A DNA stretch of 64,000 bases, taken from NCBI RefSeq assembly GCF_000226565.1, contig NC_016041.1, positions 3,782,001 to 3,846,000 on the forward strand, written 5' to 3'. Shown here piece after piece: positions 43,665 to 54,700 of this stretch. The translations under genes were made by a program, and so were the position numbers. The notes under the pieces are model-generated. The model was not told the DNA's origin, made no database searches, and was given only the letters and a program-made list of their open reading frames with translations. The DNA is from Glaciecola nitratireducens FR1064 (GTDB lineage: Bacteria > Pseudomonadota > Gammaproteobacteria > Enterobacterales > Alteromonadaceae). How positions within the stretch are numbered: the first letter of the stretch is position 1; the number at the start of each line of letters is the position of its first letter.

Positions 43665-44285
43665 CTATTCTAAAGCAAGACTTTCCTCTTGCAGTTTGAA
43701 GCGCACAAGTTCAGCCAAGGTTTTTACCGCTAACTTTTTCATTACTTGTGAACGATGCACTTCAACCGTTCTCTCGCTTATACACAAGTCATGAGCGATA
43801 ACTTTATTCATGTCACCTTTTGCTACACGCTCAAAGATCTGCCGTTCGCGCTCTGACAATAACGCTAATTTATTTAATATATCGTCGCATTTGCGGTCGT
43901 GTTTGCTTCTACCTACATCAATTGATAGCGCTTGGTTGATTCGATCTAACAAATCTTGCTCTCTAAATGGCTTGCGTATGAAGTCCAATGCGCCTTTTCG
44001 CATTGCCTCAACAGCCATCGGTATATCACCATGACCCGTAATAAAAATGATAGGTAAAGTGGTGCCTAGTGCATTCAGCCTTTCTTGCAAATCTAAGCCA
44101 CTCATGCGGGGCATGCGTATGTCTAAAATAAGACAGCCGTATATTTTATCGTTGTAGTCATCTAAAAAGTCGACAGCACTGCTGTATAATTTCACGCGCT
44201 GCCCTGTAGTTTCCAGCAGCAGGCTCAAGCCCTCTCTAATTCCCTCATCGTCATCAACCACATATATTATTTGCTCTTGTTGCAT
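43665..44285 (-). CDS. fixJ: FixJ-like response regulator
   Basis: A 206-residue regulator with an N-terminal receiver (acid pocket DDDEG, phospho-acceptor Asp55 in LILDIRMPR, Lys in FIRKPF) and a C-terminal LuxR-type helix-turn-helix (LSERERQIFERVAKGDMNKVIAHDL...SERTVEVHRSQVMKKL). This is the FixJ/TtrR/TodT pattern. The matching FixL-like heme kinase gene lies at 49722-51332, on the far side of the PHA-Pta-Ack operon. FixJ is divergent from that operon across 344 bases, so it probably controls it. Confidence 0.9.
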   Translation of the reverse strand: MQQEQIIYVVDDDEGIREGLSLLLETTGQRVKLYSSAVDFLDDYNDKIYGCLILDIRMPRMSGLDLQERLNALGTTLPIIFITGHGDIPMAVEAMRKGALDFIRKPFREQDLLDRINQALSIDVGRSKHDRKCDDILNKLALLSERERQIFERVAKGDMNKVIAHDLCISERTVEVHRSQVMKKLAVKTLAELVRFKLQEESLALE

Positions 44286-44629
44286 ATTAGCTATCTCGCG
44301 TATGTTTAGTTAATCCACATATTTCGATTCTCAACCAGCTTCGCCAATTGCTGCCGACCGTAAGCTCTTCATAGTAAATAATAGTCAATCTAACCAAATG
44401 AGCCAACCAAAGCATAAAATAATAAAAACCAAGGGGCCAGAGTACATGAAACCTCTTGGTTTCATGTACTCTGGCCCCTTGGTTTTTATTCCTTAACTGT
44501 GGTTAGCCACATTAACGTAGGGCAATCACTGATTGTTGACTATCGCTATTCGTTGATAGATTAAGTGTTTTCATTCACATTCACGCACATAAGCGCGCTA
44601 TTCAACAGCATCAACGAAGGGTATGTAAA
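44286..44629. other. Divergent intergenic region upstream of fixJ and phaC
   Basis: It holds the long perfect hairpin at 44421-44490 (listed separately). Both promoters should be here, and a FixJ binding site is expected, but I see no clear FixJ or FNR box. TTGATAGATTAAG at 44553-44565 is only half an FNR site. Confidence 0.5.
44421..44490. repeat. REP-like element: perfect 33-bp-arm hairpin
   Basis: Arms 44421-44453 and 44458-44490 are perfectly complementary over 33 bases with a 4-base loop TCTT. The core word CCAAGGGGCCAGAGTACATG recurs in a second, less perfect hairpin at 51581-51644. It resembles the GGGGTCAGAGTACAT-type elements associated with REP-associated (RAYT/Y1) transposases in gammaproteobacteria; no transposase gene is present here. 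It could also block transcription between the divergent genes. Confidence 0.85.
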
Positions 44630-46363
44630 ATGAAGAGTGATGATTCACAGCCGCAGATAATAGATAAAATACTGCATGCATCAATGGCTAAAATCACCTC
44701 AGGACTATCACCTAGCGCACTTATGGCTGCTTATGCTGATTGGGCTGTGCATTTAGCCTCGTCACCCGGGAAACAGTCACAGTTAATTGAAAAAGCCGCT
44801 AGAAAGTTTGCTCGATTAGCTGGTTACCTAAGTGAATGTAGCGCAACGCTGGGCGAAAACTCCCCCTGTATAGAACCTTTACCCATTGACAAACGCTTCA
44901 GTGAAGACAGTTGGCAGAAATGGCCTTTTAACCTGTTATATCAGTCTTTCTTGCTCAATCAGCAATGGTGGTCAAACGCCACGACAGATGTACGCGGAGT
45001 TACTCAGCAACATGAAAACGTGATGGAATTCGCAACACGACAAATATTAGATGTATTTTCACCATCAAACTATCTGCTAACTAATCCGCAATTACTGGAA
45101 CAAACGGAAAAAGAGGCTGGTCAGAATTTGGTGCGTGGAGCGCAGAATTTTTTAGATGATTTGCAGCAAACGATAGCCAACAAAAAGCCCAAGGCAGGCG
45201 CAAAGTTTGTGGTCGGCAAGCAGTTAGCCATAACGCCAGGTAAAATAATATACCGTAATCATCTTATTGAGCTAATTCAGTATACGTCGACTACCGATGA
45301 AGTTCGGTCTCAGCCAATATTGATTGTGCCCGCGTGGATAATGAAATACTACATTCTTGATTTATCACCAAGCAACTCACTAGTGAAGTACCTTACGGAA
45401 CAAGGTTTCACCGTATTTATGGTGTCATGGAAAAATCCAGACGCAAGCGATCGTGATTTAGGTATGGATGACTACCGTAACATGGGTGTAATGGACGCCA
45501 TCGATGCAATCGAAAAAATCACCAATAACGCAAAAATTCACGCAATGGGATATTGTTTAGGTGGCACATTGCTGTCTATTGCCGCGGCCACTATGGCGAG
45601 AGAAGGCGATAATAGACTCCAAAGTTTGTCGCTGTTTGCTGCTCAGGTAGATTTTACTGAAGCAGGCGAGCTGATGCTGTTTATTAATGAAAGTCAGGTC
45701 ACTTTTTTAGAAGACATGATGTGGGAAAAGGGCTATTTAGACGCTAAGCAAATGTCGGGCGCTTTTCAACTACTTCGTTCAAATGATTTGATTTGGTCAC
45801 GCATTGTGCACGATTACTTGATGGGTGAACGCGCTCCCCTGAACGACTTAATGGCGTGGAATTTTGATACAACAAGAATGCCCTATAAAATGCATTCCCA
45901 ATACTTGCGTCAACTGTTTTTAAATAACGAACTGTCAGAGGGGCAGTACATTGTTGACGGAAAGCCAATTTATTTATCGGATATTCGTGTCCCCACATTT
46001 ATTGTTGGTACCCAAAAAGACCACGTTGCTCCTTGGAAGTCTGTATATAAATTTCATTTAGAAAGCGATACCGACGTCACTTTTTTGCTAACCAGCGGCG
46101 GACACAACGCAGGCATTGTGAGTGAGCCAGAACATCCCCACAGAACATATCAGATTGCGACCACTAAGAAGGAAGCAACTTATATCGACCCTGACAGCTG
46201 GGTGGCGACACAAGAGGAGCATGACGGATCGTGGTGGCCAGAATTAGCAAAATGGTTACACAGCCACTCTGGCAAATATATACCTCCACCGACAATGGGG
46301 AACCCCAAGAAAAAGTTAAGCATACTGTGTGATGCGCCCGGCACTTATGTGATGCAAGATTAA
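44630..46363 (+). CDS. phaC: Class I poly(3-hydroxyalkanoate) synthase
   Basis: A 577-residue PHA synthase that polymerises (R)-3-hydroxyacyl-CoA. The lipase-like box is GYCLGG with nucleophile Cys309; Asp464 (GTQKDHVAPW) and His492 (SGGHNAGIV) complete the triad. The N-terminal domain carries FNLLYQSFLLNQQWW, and the conserved FVVSWxNP-type motif reads FMVSWKNPDAS. AAGG lies 9 nt before ATG. It is the first gene of an operon with a MaoC-Pta fusion and acetate kinase, a pairing that suggests carbon storage tied to overflow or low-oxygen acetyl-CoA metabolism rather than a standard phaCAB operon. No phasin or ketothiolase gene is nearby. Confidence 0.93.
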   Translation: MKSDDSQPQIIDKILHASMAKITSGLSPSALMAAYADWAVHLASSPGKQSQLIEKAARKFARLAGYLSECSATLGENSPCIEPLPIDKRFSEDSWQKWPFNLLYQSFLLNQQWWSNATTDVRGVTQQHENVMEFATRQILDVFSPSNYLLTNPQLLEQTEKEAGQNLVRGAQNFLDDLQQTIANKKPKAGAKFVVGKQLAITPGKIIYRNHLIELIQYTSTTDEVRSQPILIVPAWIMKYYILDLSPSNSLVKYLTEQGFTVFMVSWKNPDASDRDLGMDDYRNMGVMDAIDAIEKITNNAKIHAMGYCLGGTLLSIAAATMAREGDNRLQSLSLFAAQVDFTEAGELMLFINESQVTFLEDMMWEKGYLDAKQMSGAFQLLRSNDLIWSRIVHDYLMGERAPLNDLMAWNFDTTRMPYKMHSQYLRQLFLNNELSEGQYIVDGKPIYLSDIRVPTFIVGTQKDHVAPWKSVYKFHLESDTDVTFLLTSGGHNAGIVSEPEHPHRTYQIATTKKEATYIDPDSWVATQEEHDGSWWPELAKWLHSHSGKYIPPPTMGNPKKKLSILCDAPGTYVMQD

Positions 46364-46380
46364 GGCGGTGAAGGACAGAC

Positions 46381-47793
46381 ATGGAATATATAGAAAATCT
46401 GACTTTTGATGAAATATCAGTAGGCGACAAAGCAGAACTAAGCCGAGAACTAAACACAAGAGACATTGAATTATTCGCCGTAATCTCAGGCGATGAAAAC
46501 CCCGCTCATAGCATGTGGGGTGGTGCGTTAATATCGTCGGTATTAGGCACGCAGTTGCCTGGCCCAGGTACTGTCTATTTAACGCAATCATTAAACTTTT
46601 TCCTGCCGGTTGAGCTTGGCGACGAAGTATTAGTGCGAGTAACAGTAAGAGAAAAAATCGCTAGCAAAAATCAGCTTGTATTCGATTGCGAATGCTTTAA
46701 TCAAGACGGTGAACTCGTTATCAAAGGCGAGGCCAAAGTCATCGCCCCTACCGTCAAAATTCGCCGTCCACGAGCAGCAATACCCGAAGTACATTTACAT
46801 GAGCATGCTGCGCACTATCAACAATTAATTGAAAAAACTAAAAACATCGATCCTATTAGGGTAGCCGTCGTTCACCCTTGTGACGAAGTGTCCTTGCTTG
46901 GTGCCATAGAAGCAAAAGATAAAGGCATAATTGAGCCAATATTAATAGGTCCAAAAGCAAAAATTATAGCTACCGCTGAAAAAGCTTCGTGTAACTTGGA
47001 TGGCATCAAAATAATAAACGTCCCTCACAGTCATGCGGCGGCTGCAGCAGCAGTTGAAGAAGTTCGCGCGAACCACGTAGATGCCATCATGAAAGGGAAA
47101 TTGCATACTGACGAGCTGATGAGCCCTATTGTAGATGCAAAGAACGGCTTGCGTACTGAGCGAAGAATGAGCCACATATTCGCCTTAGATGTGCCCACTT
47201 ATCACAAAGCACTATTTATTACCGATGCGGCCATTAATATTGCGCCCGATTTGACAACAAAACGCGATATCGTTCAAAACGCAATTGAATTACTTCACAC
47301 CTTGGGTAACTCGTCACCTAAAGTCGCCATTTTATCGGCGGTAGAAACGATTAATGCCAAAATGCTTTCCACTATAGATGCTGCAGCCTTATGTAAAATG
47401 GCAGAACGAATGCAAATTACTGGTGGTATTCTTGATGGCCCATTAGCTTTTGATAATGCCATTTCAAAAGCTTCTGCGGCAAGCAAAGAACTTGTATCTG
47501 AAGTAGCGGGCGATGCAGATATACTGCTTGCCCCCGACCTTGAGGCCGCGAATATGTTAGCAAAACAGCTCATATATTTAGCCGGTGCAGAATCAGCAGG
47601 TATTGTTTTAGGAGCAACGGTTCCTATCATATTAACCAGCCGCTCCGACGGCATATTGTCAAGGCTCGCTTCTTGTGTATTAGCGCAACTTTATGTTCAC
47701 CATCGGTCCATCGAAAAACACGCTATTCAACTGCCTATTGATAAATATGGCGGAAATGAACCTCCTACCTATACCAAGCAGATACTGTTATGA
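46381..47793 (+). CDS. MaoC-like hydratase / phosphate acetyltransferase fusion
   Basis: A 470-residue two-domain protein. Residues 1-140 are a MaoC/PhaJ-type hot-dog domain; 155-465 are a phosphate acyltransferase (Pta/Ptb) domain with DAIMKGKLHTDELM and GALAFDNAIS-like GPLAFDNAIS. The fusion is a known family, usually beside acetate kinase. The hydratase part is abnormal. After the catalytic SGDENPAH (36-43) the sequence jumps straight to SMWGGALIS; PhaJ relatives have about 18 residues there, ending HGM. The catalytic overhang is therefore missing, and this half is probably inactive or altered. The Pta half appears intact and would make acetyl phosphate for the kinase encoded next, which overlaps by 4 bases. 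Confidence 0.9.
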   Translation: MEYIENLTFDEISVGDKAELSRELNTRDIELFAVISGDENPAHSMWGGALISSVLGTQLPGPGTVYLTQSLNFFLPVELGDEVLVRVTVREKIASKNQLVFDCECFNQDGELVIKGEAKVIAPTVKIRRPRAAIPEVHLHEHAAHYQQLIEKTKNIDPIRVAVVHPCDEVSLLGAIEAKDKGIIEPILIGPKAKIIATAEKASCNLDGIKIINVPHSHAAAAAAVEEVRANHVDAIMKGKLHTDELMSPIVDAKNGLRTERRMSHIFALDVPTYHKALFITDAAINIAPDLTTKRDIVQNAIELLHTLGNSSPKVAILSAVETINAKMLSTIDAAALCKMAERMQITGGILDGPLAFDNAISKASAASKELVSEVAGDADILLAPDLEAANMLAKQLIYLAGAESAGIVLGATVPIILTSRSDGILSRLASCVLAQLYVHHRSIEKHAIQLPIDKYGGNEPPTYTKQILL

Positions 47794-48977
47794 CCGATGC
47801 AATACTGGTCCTAAACGCGGGTTCTTCAAGTATTAAATTTGCTATCTACGCTCACACAAATGTTAGATCACCGGCATTAATGAGCGGTAAAGTTATTAAC
47901 CTTAGCCATACCCCTCAGTTTTTAGCCAATGGAGTCGATGGCAGACCATTGCCTCAAAAAAATATGATGACGTTTGACGAAACGACAACTCATGAAAATA
48001 TTGTATCGTGGCTACTTGGCTGGGTTGAGCATGAAAATCAGGGATACACTATCAGGTGTGTTGGGCATCGCGTTGTGCACGGAGGGCGTGACTATGCGAA
48101 GCCGATCCTGCTGACCACCAGCATAATTTCACAACTAAAAGCACTCGTTCCATTAGCTCCACTGCATCAGCCACATAGCTTATCTGCCATTGCGGCCGTG
48201 TCCAAGTGGGCGCCTAAATTACCCCAAGTAGCTTGTTTTGACACCAGTTATCATTATACGCAAGAGCCGCTTGCTCGATTTTTTGCGCTTCCTCGAGAAT
48301 GGTATGACAGAGGTATAATCCGATATGGTTTCCACGGCCTTTCATACCAATATATTGCCAATAGCTTACCGTGTTACTTAGGGGAGCTAGCTGAAGGCAG
48401 AGTGATTGTTGCTCACCTGGGTAACGGTGCCAGCATGTGTGCTATGAAAAAAAGACAAAGTGTTGCCACCAGTATGGGATTTACTGCACTCGATGGCTTG
48501 ATGATGGGCCAACGTTGCGGAAGCCTCGATCCGGGTGTTGTTGTCCACCTTGTGCGCCACTATAAGATGAGTATTGAAGAAATAGAACACATGCTTTACA
48601 ACGATTCAGGACTACTCGGTGTTTCGGGCATTAGCAACAATATGCAGGTATTGCAAAACAGCAGTCATCCACACGCAAAGCAGGCTATTGAATTATTTTG
48701 CTATAAAGCCGTTCAAGAGTTATCGTCGTTGGTGAGTACCATAAATGGTATTGACGCTATCGTTTTCACAGCGGGTATCGGTGAAAATTCAGCGCAAATA
48801 CGGCAACAAATTTGTGACCGTCTAACCTGGCTAGGCGTCAGCCTTGACACTGGCGCAAATACAACTCACCAACATGTTATTAGTCACCCAGATTCGCTTG
48901 TGAAAGTACTTATCATTCCAACCAATGAAGAACTTATTATCGCACAGGAAACCCAATCGTTGATAACAACGCAGTAA
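47790..48977 (+). CDS. ackA: Acetate kinase
   Basis: A 395-residue acetate/propionate kinase: N-terminal LVLNAGSSSIKFAI, the central VVHGG and FDTSYHYT motifs, substrate region RYGFHGLSYQYI, HLGNGASMCA and the C-terminal FTAGIGENSAQIR. It turns acetyl phosphate and ADP into acetate and ATP, or the reverse. The ATG overlaps the stop of the Pta fusion gene (ATGA), so the two steps are coupled. Under low oxygen this pair would yield ATP from acetyl-CoA. Propionyl phosphate could also be a substrate. Confidence 0.95.
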   Translation: MTDAILVLNAGSSSIKFAIYAHTNVRSPALMSGKVINLSHTPQFLANGVDGRPLPQKNMMTFDETTTHENIVSWLLGWVEHENQGYTIRCVGHRVVHGGRDYAKPILLTTSIISQLKALVPLAPLHQPHSLSAIAAVSKWAPKLPQVACFDTSYHYTQEPLARFFALPREWYDRGIIRYGFHGLSYQYIANSLPCYLGELAEGRVIVAHLGNGASMCAMKKRQSVATSMGFTALDGLMMGQRCGSLDPGVVVHLVRHYKMSIEEIEHMLYNDSGLLGVSGISNNMQVLQNSSHPHAKQAIELFCYKAVQELSSLVSTINGIDAIVFTAGIGENSAQIRQQICDRLTWLGVSLDTGANTTHQHVISHPDSLVKVLIIPTNEELIIAQETQSLITTQ

Positions 48978-49021
48978 GTATAAATAACCGGGCCCCCGAG
49001 TAGTTACAAAAAAATCAGTGA

Positions 49022-49546
49022 CTATAGGTGCAATGTATAAGTAGTCAAAGCGCTATCCTCCGGATGTATTTTTGCCGTCATTCCAAAATGCTTAGCCAAC
49101 TTGTGCATTCTGTAATTGGTGCTTAAGTCGGTCGAAAAAAGTTTTTTAACGTTGTTACTTTTAGCATGTTTTACTAACGCATTTAACAACACAGTCGCAA
49201 TTTCTTCATATGGATATTCATCTGCAACGGTGATTGCCATTTCACATTCACCCGGCTTGTCGCTGGCAGCGTAGCGACAAACACCCACCTCTTTTTCGCC
49301 ATCCGGACTATCTACTGTAGCAATATATGCCATGGTATTTATATAATCGATGTTACACAACACAGTTACCATGGACGGTGATAAATCTTTTATTCCTTCA
49401 AAAAAGCGCTCATATTTTGTTTGTAGCGAGAGGTTGTGAACAAAAGAGGCTTCGATTTCCTTATCCTCAGGCGTAATCGGGCGAATGGTAACCTCAAGCT
49501 CACCAATATTAACATGTTGGTGATCGCTTACGAGTTGCTCAGTCAT
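49022..49546 (-). CDS. GNAT-family N-acetyltransferase
   Basis: A 174-residue single GNAT domain. Start ATG 49546 has AAGGAG at 7 nt; the frame extends 9 codons upstream without support. It opens with ELEVTIRPITPEDKE, has the strand AYIATVDSPDGEKEVGVCRY, and DEYPYEEIATVLLNALVKHAK where the acetyl-CoA loop lies. Such domains resemble the acetyltransferase part of Pat/YfiQ-type lysine acetylases, which control acetyl-CoA synthetase. Its place beside acetate kinase makes control of acetate metabolism attractive but unproven. Confidence 0.88.
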   Translation of the reverse strand: MTEQLVSDHQHVNIGELEVTIRPITPEDKEIEASFVHNLSLQTKYERFFEGIKDLSPSMVTVLCNIDYINTMAYIATVDSPDGEKEVGVCRYAASDKPGECEMAITVADEYPYEEIATVLLNALVKHAKSNNVKKLFSTDLSTNYRMHKLAKHFGMTAKIHPEDSALTTYTLHL

Positions 49547-49721
49547 GCTATTTCTCCTTATACCTCGGTGCATAGTTGTCGTTATATTGAATATTCTCTT
49601 ATGATTTTTCCATCATAGGAGCGCCAGTTTTGAACAGCAATTAGGGATAGCCACATTTCACTGGGGCAGGTAGCAAATAATGGTGCATCAAACTTTGTTA
49701 GGAAAGTGAACAGTGGGTCAT

Positions 49722-51332
49722 CTAATCCACTACGGGCAATATAAAAAAGAACACCGTTCCCGCGGGACTATTACTTGAATAGTGAATACGACCACCGTGC
49801 TCCTGAAGAATACTTTTTGAAATAGACAACCCAATACCCATTCCGTTTTCTTTAGTTGAAGAAAATGCGGTGAATAGCTTATCTGTCATTTTATTAGAAA
49901 GGCCGCAGCCACTGTCAATAACGGCGATTTTAACTGCTGTTTGGCGATTTGGGCGGTGAGGTGTTTGTGATATAAGATCGGCTCTTAGCTCTATAGTACT
50001 TCCGTTCTTCAATTTGGAAACTTCCATCGCTTCCATACCATTACGCAATAAATTAAGCATCACTTGCTGCATTTGAACAATATCAACGAACACGTGAGTA
50101 CCGCTTTTACAGCGGCTAGTTTTAATACTGATGTTTCGTATTTTAGCATCGGATTCTGCCAATTTAACGACATCGTCAATCAATACATTACAATCAACCA
50201 GTTCTTTTTGCCTATCACCTTGCTTAGTCATAACTTGCATGCGCTCAAGCACTGCACCTGCTCGCCGAGCATGCTGACTTACCTTTTCAAATATTTCAGG
50301 GAGCCGTTCAAACTTGCCGCTATTACATAAACTTTTACCCGATTGAGAGAATAAGGATATCGCGGTCAAAGGCTGACTTACTTCATGCGCAATACCGGCC
50401 GCCATCTCCCCCAAAGAATTGAGCCTTTCAACATGCGCCATTTGTTCGATGTGCTTTCGTGCTTGCTCTGCTGCAGCTCTTTGTAGAGTAATGTCTCTAA
50501 TTAATCCAACAAACATCGTCTTTTCATGGGATTGAATTTCACTAATTGATAAGTGAATGGCAAACACGCTTCCATCTTTGCGCTTCGCTTGAAGCTCTCG
50601 CCCAACACCAATGATATTCGCTTGGTGATTGCGTAAATAGTTGGATAAATATTGGTCATGATGATCTGCGTAGGAGCTTGGCATAAGTGATTTAATGTTT
50701 TTGTTTTTAACCTCATCAAAGGTATATCCAAACATTGCTTGCGCAGCATTATTGAAGCTTTTGATCAAACCGGTGTGATCAATAGTGACAACGCCCTCTG
50801 AAACTGAGCTGACAATTGCATCAGAGAATGCGTGAATACTTAAAACTTCTTTTTCCACCAGTTTAACTGTCGTAATGTCGGTAATGAATCCTTCTACAAT
50901 CAATTTATTGTGCAACATAGAGAAAACAGCTTCACCTCTTTCCCAAACAAGCCGAACATCTTTGTTTTTCGTAATGATGCGATATTCAAGTTCAAAAATC
51001 GTCTTATTGCTTAGCGCTCGTTCAACGACCTCACATACATGTGCGTAGTCATCAGGGTGAATTAACTTTCCCCATAACACGTCACTCGACTCAAACGCGT
51101 CTTGAGACCAGCCAGTGAGGTCCTCACAGCCTTCGCTCACTAAAATTATCGGCCAGTCTGGCAGGTTATGAGCTTGATAAGCCATGCCCGGTAGATTATT
51201 GAGTAAGTGTCTTACATTATTCCGGTCATCTAGTATTAGTCTTGCTTTATTCCGTGCAACTACCGTCAGGTATATTGCTAAACTCACGGAAATGACTAAC
51301 AGCGCAACCAACGCGCTCAAAATAATCAGCAT
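49722..51332 (-). CDS. fixL: FixL-like oxygen-sensing histidine kinase
   Basis: A 536-residue kinase with one N-terminal membrane helix (2-25), a first PAS (about 45-155), a second PAS (about 168-282), H-box GIAHEVSQPLTAI (His316) and an ATPase domain (GCGLS, GMGIGLSISKSIL). The second PAS matches the FixL heme pocket: His225 in DHHDQY aligns with the heme ligand His200 of Bradyrhizobium FixL and Arg245 in IIGVGRE with Arg220, at the same 20-residue spacing. It should sense O2. Its partner FixJ is encoded at 43665-44285; the PHA-Pta-Ack operon lies between them. A GNAT gene separates it from that operon. Confidence 0.9.
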   Translation of the reverse strand: MLIILSALVALLVISVSLAIYLTVVARNKARLILDDRNNVRHLLNNLPGMAYQAHNLPDWPIILVSEGCEDLTGWSQDAFESSDVLWGKLIHPDDYAHVCEVVERALSNKTIFELEYRIITKNKDVRLVWERGEAVFSMLHNKLIVEGFITDITTVKLVEKEVLSIHAFSDAIVSSVSEGVVTIDHTGLIKSFNNAAQAMFGYTFDEVKNKNIKSLMPSSYADHHDQYLSNYLRNHQANIIGVGRELQAKRKDGSVFAIHLSISEIQSHEKTMFVGLIRDITLQRAAAEQARKHIEQMAHVERLNSLGEMAAGIAHEVSQPLTAISLFSQSGKSLCNSGKFERLPEIFEKVSQHARRAGAVLERMQVMTKQGDRQKELVDCNVLIDDVVKLAESDAKIRNISIKTSRCKSGTHVFVDIVQMQQVMLNLLRNGMEAMEVSKLKNGSTIELRADLISQTPHRPNRQTAVKIAVIDSGCGLSNKMTDKLFTAFSSTKENGMGIGLSISKSILQEHGGRIHYSSNSPAGTVFFFILPVVD

Positions 51333-51767
51333 TCGATAATAAGCTCCATGTCAGTTGCACCTTTACATAACAACTTGCAAATAATGTTGAAAACTTCAGT
51401 TTGAAATTAACGTTATTTATACGCCACCCTGCTTCTGCTAATCTAACAATAGACTGCATAATGAAGCTATGCAATATCACTGCAGGTTTAACGCTTCTAA
51501 CTTAATTTTTTTCGTTACAAAGCTTGCCATAATTCCACCGGAGTCAATGCCGGACGAATAGGCACAAAAACCAAGAGGTCAAAAACCAAGGGGCCATAGC
51601 ACATGAAACTTATCTGTTTCATGTACTCTGGCCCCTTGGTTTTTGGTTTGCTCTGAGCCCTTGGCTTGCTTAGTTTACGGGTGGAGTATAGGAATGATTG
51701 TTTACACACAATATTTTTGTTAGTTTCAGGGCAACAACATCTTTCCGACTTTAAGAATCGCACTACA
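51333..51767. other. Divergent intergenic region between fixL and the SNF2 gene
   Basis: Contains the second copy of the long hairpin repeat (51581-51644) and presumably both promoters. No coding frame of note: an open frame continues upstream of the SNF2 start to 51666 but has no homology-like content. Confidence 0.5.
51581..51644. repeat. REP-like element, second copy (imperfect 29-bp hairpin)
   Basis: Arms 51581-51609 and 51616-51644, loop TTATCT, with two mismatches. The right arm is identical over its whole length to the corresponding arm at 44458-44490; the left arm has two changes. An extra partial copy of the outer word (AAAAACCAAG) just before it, near 51566-51575, suggests slippage or nested insertion. 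Confidence 0.8.
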
Positions 51768-54700
51768 ATGAATCTTGCTGCCTTAATTCAGCCACAAACC
51801 CAACAAAAAATTGAATCTTTATACAAAGTTTTCTCTGGGTTGAGTGAATCTGAACAATTCCTACTACTGGTTTTAGCTGTGATCTACAAACCGATTGGCA
51901 TTATAAAACTCGACCAAATAGTCGATTTATTAGACAGTAGAGGCTTCGTCCTAAATACAAAAAAAGAACGGCGTTTAAGCGCAGAGCAAAAAGACCATTT
52001 GATTAAGCATTCTCTCTTAATATCGACGAGAGATGGCTTACAGGTCAATCGACTATTAGCTAACAAATTAACGTCTGAAATTAACCAACTACAAACCTCA
52101 TTTGCCTGCACAGCACAAGAAAAACTCATTGAAATCATCATGACTGCGGAAGAGGTTGTGCCGGTAATTAATAGCCATATATGGCAGAAAAAAGCGGTCG
52201 ATAAACGCAGGGTTATTCGAGACCTTTTTTATATGGGCCTAATAGAACAATTTGAAAGTGAATTGGCGTTCAATAAAAACTCTCAAATTATTGATCATGT
52301 TAAAAATGGCATTTTGGTAGAAATTTTATTTTTACCCTTTAATTTGGGGACTTTTTTACAACTTCCAGCGATGATGCAATATCAAGCGTTCGCTACACTC
52401 ATTCGAACCTTTCAAATACAGGGAGAAGCTTGCGACTACCCTATCCAATTGCTAGAGCAAGTTTGCGCAGCACACAGCGATAAAACAAGCCCATCATTCA
52501 ATTCGCACTGCCATCATTTACTCGCAGAACAATATTTATATCAAATGCGCTTTGACGATTTTGAACGCCTACAAGATCCTGAGGATAACAGCAGCTATGG
52601 ATTGCAGTTACAAGGCGCATATTCCTTTTTAACCGGCGATAACCAGCAAGCCATCGTCTATTTTGAAAAAGCCTTGATAGCAAAAAACAAAATCACTAAA
52701 CGTAAGAAGCAGTATTTGAATGAGGTTCTCGGATATTTCTATAAACTAGCGCTCATGGTTGAAGCTAATCAGCATGATGTTAGTTACTTTTCAAAAGCCA
52801 TACAGCAGGTTGAATTTGAAGAGAGTGATCGCAAAGTGAACAGCGATTTTTATAGTGTTGGCCGCAGTGTTTTGAAACCTATTCAGAGCTTATCCACTGG
52901 CGAAAAATACAGCGTTAACGTTAAGTATAGCTGTGCCGATGCCGAGATTGACTTTCTTGGACACCAACTCGGTTACTTCAATTATTTACTGGCGCAAGTT
53001 TGGTGTAACCAAAGCAAAGACCCCGCGTTAGCCCAATTGGCGTTAAAGTACCAGGCTAATTTTGAGCAACTTGCCTATCCCTTATTCGCCCAATTGTGCG
53101 AACAGTTAGCGGCGAGTTTTAGTAATAAAGAACCACGTATTGAACCAAAGTTGCTGGATATTACCGCCCTTGTGAAAACAAAATCTCAGTGGGATTTAGC
53201 CCTCGACAAGTTAATTGCACTTAATCCAAACGCTGAAACCGCGTTAGCGCCAGCCCCTGAGGCAGAAGCCAAACCCATTCGCTTAATTTGGGAGCTAGTG
53301 CAGGATTATGGAAACAGCTTGGTAGCACGAGAGCAAAAGTTGAATAAAGCAGGTTGGACTAAAGGCCGAATAATATCGCTGAAGCGGCTGAAGGAAGAAA
53401 CCGAGCTGTTTGATTACCTAAGCGAAAGCGATAAGAAAATTTGCGCTACTATTACCGCACAACAAAGTTGGGGATACTACTCAAAAGTTGAATATTCGCT
53501 GCAGGGATTGCCAGCCTTAAATGCGGCAGTTGGGATTGAAAATTTATATAAAGCTGACATTCTTGAGCACCCTATTGAGCTAATAAAGCGTGAACCTGAA
53601 TTGCTAGTTAGTCAGCAAGGCGATCAACTGTGTTTGAGCATTGCCGATTTATCGGACGATATCGACGATGAATTCGAAGAACAATTTGATGATCATAGAG
53701 CGCACAGCACATACAAGCTAAAACCCATTTCTGATGATCAGTATCAACTCACCGTGTTTTCACCTGATCATATTAAGGTGGCTAAAATTATTGGAGAAGG
53801 TGGTCTACTCATTCCCATTAGTGCAAAACAAAAAGCGCTAGAGGGTATCTCCGCCATTGCGCCTTTTTTAAATATTCAATCTGATATTGCTGAGCTCGAT
53901 ACTGGCCTAGAAACACATGAATGTGATCGTAATTTGGTCGTGAATATCCAGCCGACGCAAAGCGGCCTAGCATTTACCTGCGTGGTGATGCCGTTTGGTG
54001 AAAATGGTCCTATGTATAAACCCGGCACTGGTAACGCCAGCTTAAGCACCGACATTAAGGGCAAACGAATTGCCACTCAGCGCGACTTATTGCGTGAAGA
54101 AACACTGCTGGACCAACTCGACCAAGCTTGCCCCGCTTTTTTGGATATGCCCGACAACGTATTGTTGTTAGACGACTTACAAACGGCCCTTGCAGCTCTT
54201 GAGCAGCTAGAAGCGGCCATTGCCCAGACAGACTTTGACTTACTTTTGCGCTGGCCCAAAGGCAAAAAGATTAGCCTAACGAAAAAGTTAGACAGCGAGC
54301 ACCTGCAGCTCGCGGTTGGTAAAAAAAGTGAGTGGTTTGATATTACCGGCAATCTGCAAGTTAATAACGAACAAGTGATTGAATTGCGTAAATTACTGGA
54401 ACTTGTTAGAACCAGCAACGGTCGTTTTATTGAGCTGGGCGCTGACCAAATACTTGCGCTATCTGACGATTTACGCCACAAACTCGAGCAAATTAACCAA
54501 CTTACCGATGACGGTAAGTTTCACCCGCTTGCTAGCTTGCAAATGGAGGAAGCAACAACCGGTATGCGCATGAAAACTATCCATGCGTGGGACGAGCAAA
54601 CTCAAAAAATGCATCAAGCAAATACCATTGAGCCAAAAATTCCGTCCACCTTTCAAGCGCAGTTACGGGAATACCAAATAGCAGGTTTCGACTGGGCATC

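Follow-up and report, generated by a model that had tools for sequence, protein, structure and literature searches.

A FixLJ-type kinase-regulator pair and a conserved palindrome at a phaC-pta-ackA operon of Glaciecola nitratireducens FR1064: a candidate low-oxygen module

Could a FixLJ-type pair directly control genes of carbon storage and fermentative ATP formation in a marine gammaproteobacterium? The question arises from a locus of Glaciecola nitratireducens FR1064, the genome of which is one contig of 4.13 Mb. The stretch analysed here (the window; 64,000 nucleotides, C1:3782001-3846000) carries genes for a FixL-like kinase and a FixJ-like regulator on the two sides of phaC (polyhydroxyalkanoate, PHA, synthase), a maoC-pta fusion and ackA. 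We consider it fairly likely that the pair is a dedicated low-oxygen module that would induce phaC-(maoC)pta-ackA through a palindrome, TGTGG-N4-CCACA, lying between fixJ and phaC. What was read directly is the identity of the genes, the conservation of residues, the synteny of kinase and regulator, the repeated link to the operon, and the conserved palindrome together with where it lies; that the kinase carries heme and responds to oxygen, that FixJ binds the DNA, and in which direction and to what physiological end it regulates, are predictions from these.

Gene calls and family scans placed every gene named in the initial annotation at its coordinates. The regulator gene (43665-44285, minus strand) encodes 206 residues with a receiver and a LuxR/NarL-type helix-turn-helix (Pfam Response_reg and GerE). 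On the plus strand lie phaC (44630-46363; class I-like; Pfam PhaC_N and PHBC_N), the MaoC-Pta fusion gene (46381-47793; NF006045, 680.1 bits against a cut-off of 282) and ackA, for an acetate/propionate-family kinase (47790-48977; TIGR00016, 372.8 bits against 293.4). These three are co-directional, with a gap of 17 nt between the first two and an overlap of 4 nt between the last two, and so are probably one transcript. A GNAT acetyltransferase gene missing from the original gene list (49022-49573, minus strand; Pfam Acetyltransf_3; NCBIfam Pat, 69.1 bits against a cut-off of 460) separates ackA from the kinase gene (49722-51332, minus strand), which is 5.4 kb from fixJ. The GNAT gene is also present at the fixJ/fixL locus in two Colwellia loci (L039, L040), the congener G009, and G005 and G227.

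The kinase (536 residues) consists of an N-terminal transmembrane helix, assigned by eye and also present in a structure model, followed by a PAS_3 domain, a FixL-type PAS domain, HisKA and HATPase. The second PAS aligned without gaps to FixL structures, including that of Bradyrhizobium FixL (best E 3.8e-23). His225 (codon 50658-50660) and Arg245 (codon 50598-50600; span 50598-50660, minus strand) fell over the heme residues of FixL, and are the predicted proximal heme ligand and distal arginine. Their spacing of 20 residues had been given correctly before, and the gap-free alignment supports, from sequence alone, the earlier assignment of a FixL-like heme PAS. The 13 best distinct Protein Data Bank sequences for this domain were all FixL, DosP or E. 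coli Dos entries (among them 1v9y, 'heme pas sensor', and 1s66, 'yddU', which we take to be the same protein), and the next match stood at 1.3e-8. Both residues are kept in 18 of the 20 aligned kinases with a FixL-type PAS, the window kinase counted; the exceptions are G333, with Tyr for His, and one of two G354 kinases, with Glu/Lys for His/Arg. When the alignable PAS domains of the same genome were compared (27 overlapping loci, from 43 PAS matches), His and Arg occurred together only in the window kinase, a second FixL and a protein of 1121 residues. A structure model from a 4-row alignment, of modest confidence (mean predicted local distance difference test score, pLDDT, 63.3), placed His225 within helix 219-235 and Arg245 at the opening of strand 245-250. 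LOV-FixL chimeras and the FixL tandem PAS structure 8js5 are among its Foldseek matches, which are consistent with FixL.

Does this kinase belong with the regulator encoded on the far side of the operon? A FixJ search at E up to 1e-45 gave matches in 45 of 395 family genomes, and 18 of these were compared as regions together with the window. In 10 of the 18 relatives fixJ is directly preceded, on its own strand, by the gene of an orthologous FixL-like kinase (51-57% to the L040 kinase). G354 has two such kinases in tandem upstream, the nearer one diverged. The window genes thus probably descend from an adjacent pair, and the synteny bears out the FixL-FixJ pairing first proposed. The recognition helix of FixJ, SERTVEVHR, was found in 24 of 25 aligned rows (four of which repeat loci already included). 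The sole exception is a second FixJ of the same genome, encoded in an adjacent FixLJ pair at C1:3665592-3667326. In the region of that second pair (L192:2493-12350, equal to C1:3657493-3667350), a Crp/Fnr gene and two universal stress protein genes stand beside it; dnaJ/cbpM-like and cytochrome c-like genes, named by resemblance only, are nearby.

The link between fixJ and the operon was followed in 80 of the 122 MaoC-Pta loci found, with flanks of up to 10 kb, some shorter. A fixJ of at least 59% identity occurred near MaoC-Pta in 6 of the 80. In two Colwellia loci (L039, L040) a gene pair fixL405-fixJ is divergent from phaC, and in two Glaciecola metagenome-assembled genomes (L042, L046) fixJ itself is; the association is looser in Granulosicoccus (L052, L057), where fixL-fixJ lies several kb upstream of phaC. 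No fixJ was present in the flanks of the alteromonad loci L041 and L043, and in the genome of the latter (G005) a distance of about 20-30 kb on one contig separates fixJ, GNAT and fixL from that locus. The congener G009 has a layout like that of the window with the operon reduced: fixL, GNAT, remnants of ackA/pta/phaC (short pieces, L173:6564-7412), the palindrome, fixL405 and fixJ (88%). The order with the pair bracketing the operon, conservation of which had been proposed as a check, was mostly absent elsewhere: among the loci examined it appeared only as the remnant in G009 and, with other genes in between, in one Colwellia (L040), where 6 kb on from GNAT there is another fixL, of full length. 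What did hold is the recurrence of the operon link and the conservation of the palindrome within 44286-44629, the interval proposed for FixJ binding.

The gene fixL405 encodes a FixL-like kinase beside fixJ (L039:6027-7163, L040:6068-7285 and L173:7630-8397). Pfam shows kinase domains and no PAS in that of L039, and fixL405 is possibly an O2-blind partner kinase; the G354 kinase with Glu/Lys is a parallel case.

The palindrome (44498-44511, TGTGGTTAGCCACA; no strand) was found when the intervals before phaC were aligned. TGTGG-N4-CCACA is present in the five loci where fixJ or fixL405-fixJ diverges from phaC, and also upstream of phaC in L043, and in these six phaC promoters it ends 83-229 nt ahead of the start codon. 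In the window genome the exact site is a single copy, as is a reversed control. The number of sites over whole genomes exceeded that of the reversed control in just 8 of 40 genomes, and it is therefore placement, not number, that carries the argument. Of 19 genomes, 11 have an exact site no more than 4 kb from fixJ, where 0.107 would be expected given how many sites each genome holds. With the five discovery genomes excluded the figures were 6 of 14 against 0.077 expected, with P 6e-11 on the assumption of independent genomes; such P values are rough and inflated, the genomes being related. Over loci L173-L191 (19 of 20) there were 12 exact sites and one reversed control. In Glaciecola XM2 phaC retains the palindrome with fixJ about 30 kb off. 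We propose TGTGG-N4-CCACA as a candidate FixJ site.

The palindrome opens a composite element of 42 bp (44498-44539), in which it is followed by GGCAATCAC and ATTGTT. In three further genomes (G319, G047, G302) the palindrome is found upstream of a run of aldehyde dehydrogenase, alcohol dehydrogenase and transhydrogenase genes adjoining fixLJ (L183:1816-7627, L187:1234-5608 and L189:372-6130); the gene families were scanned in G319 (L183), and the second transhydrogenase subunit of G047 falls outside the region compared. A 42-position matrix built from the six phaC promoters scored 35.7 bits at the dehydrogenase promoter of G319, in the direction of the operon, with 5.2 bits the next best in 18 kb. 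Matrix columns 15-42 alone ranked the same position first of 35,918.

Upstream of the GNAT gene, the window and G009 share TGTGGYTAYCCCTA, a site with two mismatches. Three of four other GNAT loci had nothing closer than three mismatches, and G005 had one two-mismatch site in a different place; from these weak candidate sites GNAT is possibly co-regulated by FixJ. A sigma-70 scan of 44200-44700 gave 4 promoter-like matches against 1.4 expected, none clearly linked to phaC.

Several results weigh against control of the operon by a FixLJ pair. The kinase scored 309.9 bits with the NCBIfam equivalog for rhizobial FixL, NF041777 (cut-off 850), and the regulator 243.3 bits with the FixJ equivalog NF006900 (cut-off 255). 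Each was the best model, of 82 and 98 matching ones, and neither score reached its cut-off, so we call the proteins FixL-like and FixJ-like and do not class the kinase as a rhizobial FixL. The operon link is of low frequency, as given above, and so is the excess of palindromes over the reversed control. No exact site occurred within the examined stretch in 8 of the 19 fixJ regions; three of these (G372, G344, G322) carry AGTGGGTATCCACA, a copy with one mismatch, immediately downstream of fixJ, and in G372 a ZIP transporter gene follows this copy. Nor was an exact palindrome present at the Granulosicoccus loci L052 and L057. Those genomes hold 6 and 2 palindromes, all distant from the loci, and share a half-like TGTGGAAAGCC upstream of phaC. 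At the dehydrogenase promoters of G047 and G302 the matrix gave 2.4 and 5.9 bits, a background level (unrelated positions reach 8.4), and it fails at the sites of G018 and G354, which are without the second part of the composite element. The palindrome is also unlike the rhizobial FixJ motifs GTAMGTAG and TAAGTAATTTCCCTTA given in PMC4999443.

The copy in the window, moreover, shows signs of wear, none of which had been recorded in the initial annotation for the kinase or for MaoC. The N-terminus of the kinase is shorter than in relatives, and the periplasmic part that they carry is gone. Similarity to the Colwellia L040 kinase starts 12 nt ahead of the window start codon, and the first 188 residues of the L040 kinase had no match within 49001-54000. 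In the longer N-terminus of the relatives Pfam called a CHASE domain in G009 and none in L040 or L057. The MaoC part has a 17-residue in-frame deletion near residue 42 (about 46501-46512), where 11 relatives keep the residues; the Pta part aligns throughout with the same number of relatives. A fabI gene stands between phaC and pta in L039, L040, L042, L046, L052 and L057 and is absent there in the window, which is also without fixL405 between fixJ and phaC. These losses may have impaired the circuit of this strain, which again speaks against a working module. Compared with G009, fixJ, gnat and fixL had nonsynonymous divergence (dN) of 0.08-0.18 and synonymous divergence (dS) of 1.9-4.4, the latter saturated; this indicates past purifying selection on the three genes and is no proof of function after the truncation.

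Two 54-bp hairpin repeats (44429-44482 and 51586-51639; arms CCAAGGGGCCAGAGTACATGAAAC) flank the block from phaC to fixL and adjoin two of the losses, the right copy having one arm with 2 mismatches. They hold the genome's only exact copies of the 24-base arm, and weaker copies occur elsewhere in it. The hairpin is possibly a repetitive extragenic palindromic (REP)-type element at deletion points; that the repeats caused the losses is a guess. The left hairpin also resembles a two-way terminator between fixJ and the candidate FixJ site.

How, then, do other explanations fare? The pair and the palindrome could be real, with FixJ mainly controlling its own locus (fixJ, fixL, GNAT) and phaC-pta-ackA being a later-acquired neighbour whose link is decaying in this strain. 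The site stands by fixL/fixJ in G018 and G354, genomes with no phaC match; G009 retains fixJ, fixL and the site beside mere operon remnants; and from the window copy fixL405, fabI, some of MaoC and the periplasmic portion of the kinase are gone. Against this, the composite element that lies 3' of the palindrome faces phaC in six genomes, and in G319 it faces the dehydrogenase operon; the XM2 phaC has kept the site at a distance from fixJ; and both Pta and AckA have open frames that align over their whole length. We regard control of the own locus as an unlikely main role. Binding of the palindrome by some other protein, such as a regulator of Crp/Fnr type, with its nearness to fixJ reflecting shared descent, appears improbable to a like degree. 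A 14-bp palindrome with a 4-bp centre does resemble FNR-type sites, and the relatedness of the genomes, which inflates the P values, favours such a view. A strict FNR-type box was nevertheless found upstream of phaC in none of the seven fixJ-linked loci, that of the window among them, and the site accompanies fixJ across contexts (phaC, fixL, the dehydrogenase operon). The layout also fits the 7-2-7 arrangement that is a feature of the NarL/FixJ-type family.

The signal itself could be a different one, if the second PAS held no heme or another ligand and the system sensed, e.g., redox state or nitric oxide. His/Arg motifs alone are no proof of heme, and the His is missing in 2 of the 20 related kinases. 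Two positions of Bradyrhizobium FixL that we take to lie at the heme edge, Arg206 and His214, are by this numbering Asn in the window kinase. Against this stand the closest solved relatives, all heme O2 sensors and well ahead of the next match, the restriction of the His-Arg combination to three proteins among the alignable PAS domains of the genome, and the modelled places of the two residues; a signal other than oxygen seems to us quite unlikely.

We therefore return to the low-oxygen module and to what its operon encodes. The Pta and AckA families passed curated cut-offs, the Pta part also that of the phosphate acetyltransferase subfamily NF008852 (468.8 bits, cut-off 413). It scored 62 bits with the classical pta equivalog (cut-off 311.2) and 298.2 bits with the phosphate butyryltransferase equivalog, below the cut-off of 410.5 yet above classical pta; other acyl-CoA substrates are possible for this enzyme. 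With Pfam MaoC the fusion gave 25.2 bits, under the cut-off of 27, and the deletion leaves its MaoC domain incomplete. For PhaC the best model was class I PHA synthase, TIGR01838, at 554.8 bits, short of its cut-off of 622.65. The genome has another phaC at C1:452206, and the window ackA is its only PF00871 match. Across 13 genomes of the genus, acetate kinase is intact in that of the window and G005 only, is a fragment in G009, and is lacking in ten. On a MaoC-Pta tree of 68 rows the seven alteromonad rows form one clade (Shimodaira-Hasegawa-like approximate likelihood ratio support, SH-aLRT, 100) nested in a set of 50 rows, 38 of them alphaproteobacterial, and three changes on the tree are needed to account for the fixJ-linked label. 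This suggests that the operon was acquired and that its fixJ link was gained or lost more than once.

The membrane-anchored kinase would hold heme through His225 and bind O2. As O2 falls, it would autophosphorylate and pass the phosphate to the FixJ-like regulator, and the phosphorylated regulator would bind TGTGG-N4-CCACA upstream of phaC and activate phaC-(maoC)pta-ackA. PHA synthesis would then rise together with the only acetate-kinase route of the genome, the former taking up reducing power and acetyl-CoA and the latter yielding substrate-level ATP. The initial annotation had suggested a switch between storage and acetate; this is not supported, since the three genes appear to form a single operon, and both branches would be induced at once.

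Is such control new? The statement that rhizobial FixLJ does not govern this pathway was too strong. PMC10888616 gives phaC2 of Bradyrhizobium diazoefficiens as a recognised target of FixK2, itself below FixLJ, and according to PMC4999443 phbC might be under FnrN/FixK control in some Rhizobiales. With the Bradyrhizobium and Sinorhizobium systems the present one shares His/Arg at the FixL positions, a HisKA kinase and a FixJ-type regulator; a PHA synthase gene is the proposed target here and, in B. diazoefficiens, one of FixK2. It differs in that the kinase and regulator genes are apart, the site is unlike the published FixJ motifs, and phaC has the candidate site directly in front of it, no FixK step intervening, and shares its operon with pta and ackA; the second FixLJ pair, beside its Crp/Fnr gene, looks closer to the classical rhizobial layout. 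Alphaproteobacterial phaC-fabI-maoC/pta-ackA operons have the same genes. Upstream sequence was compared in 39 of 81 loci (the window counted), those in which phaC heads the operon at no more than 1.5 kb from pta and is preceded by a sufficient length of DNA. In 14 of 28 alphaproteobacterial loci a strict FNR/FixK box, TTGAY-N4-RTCAA, occurred within 450 bp upstream, where other parts of these loci would predict 0.34; it occurred in 0 of 4 other gammaproteobacterial and 0 of 7 fixJ-linked loci. A looser FNR/FixK pattern was present in 26 of all 81. In Rhodobacter sphaeroides the operon RSP_1257-4, headed by a PHA synthase gene, is listed in PMC4263372 as a repressed target of a different regulator, MppG; we infer its identity with the phaC-pta-ackA set. 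In the Cereibacter loci L085, L088 and L095, phaC, pta and ackA are in line. No account of FixLJ controlling a phaC-pta-ackA operon in gammaproteobacteria was found in the literature covered, which largely leaves out subscription papers and so does not show absence in print. Oxygen-linked control of PHA synthase is already known; direct FixJ control through TGTGG-N4-CCACA would be new.

A wider reading, to which we give slightly less than even credence, is that in Alteromonadales the FixLJ-type sensor is a portable oxygen switch, driving different redox and energy cassettes through one new composite FixJ promoter, TGTGG-N4-CCACA-N9-GGCAATCAC-N3-ATTGTT. An operon apparently run by FNR/FixK in many alphaproteobacteria would have come directly under FixJ, and fixL405 (Colwellia, G009) would add an O2-blind input. 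If this is true, the same switch would serve PHA and acetate-kinase ATP in some species, and aldehyde/alcohol dehydrogenase with transhydrogenase in others. The FNR/FixK box in half of the alphaproteobacterial versions compared and the FixJ-linked palindrome in alteromonads suggest replacement of the regulator on one operon, and the candidate site offers a direct and cheap handle on FixJ specificity outside rhizobia. The short DNA site and the one regulator named here are a possible means by which a marine gammaproteobacterium makes storage polyester along with fermentation ATP when oxygen is scarce.

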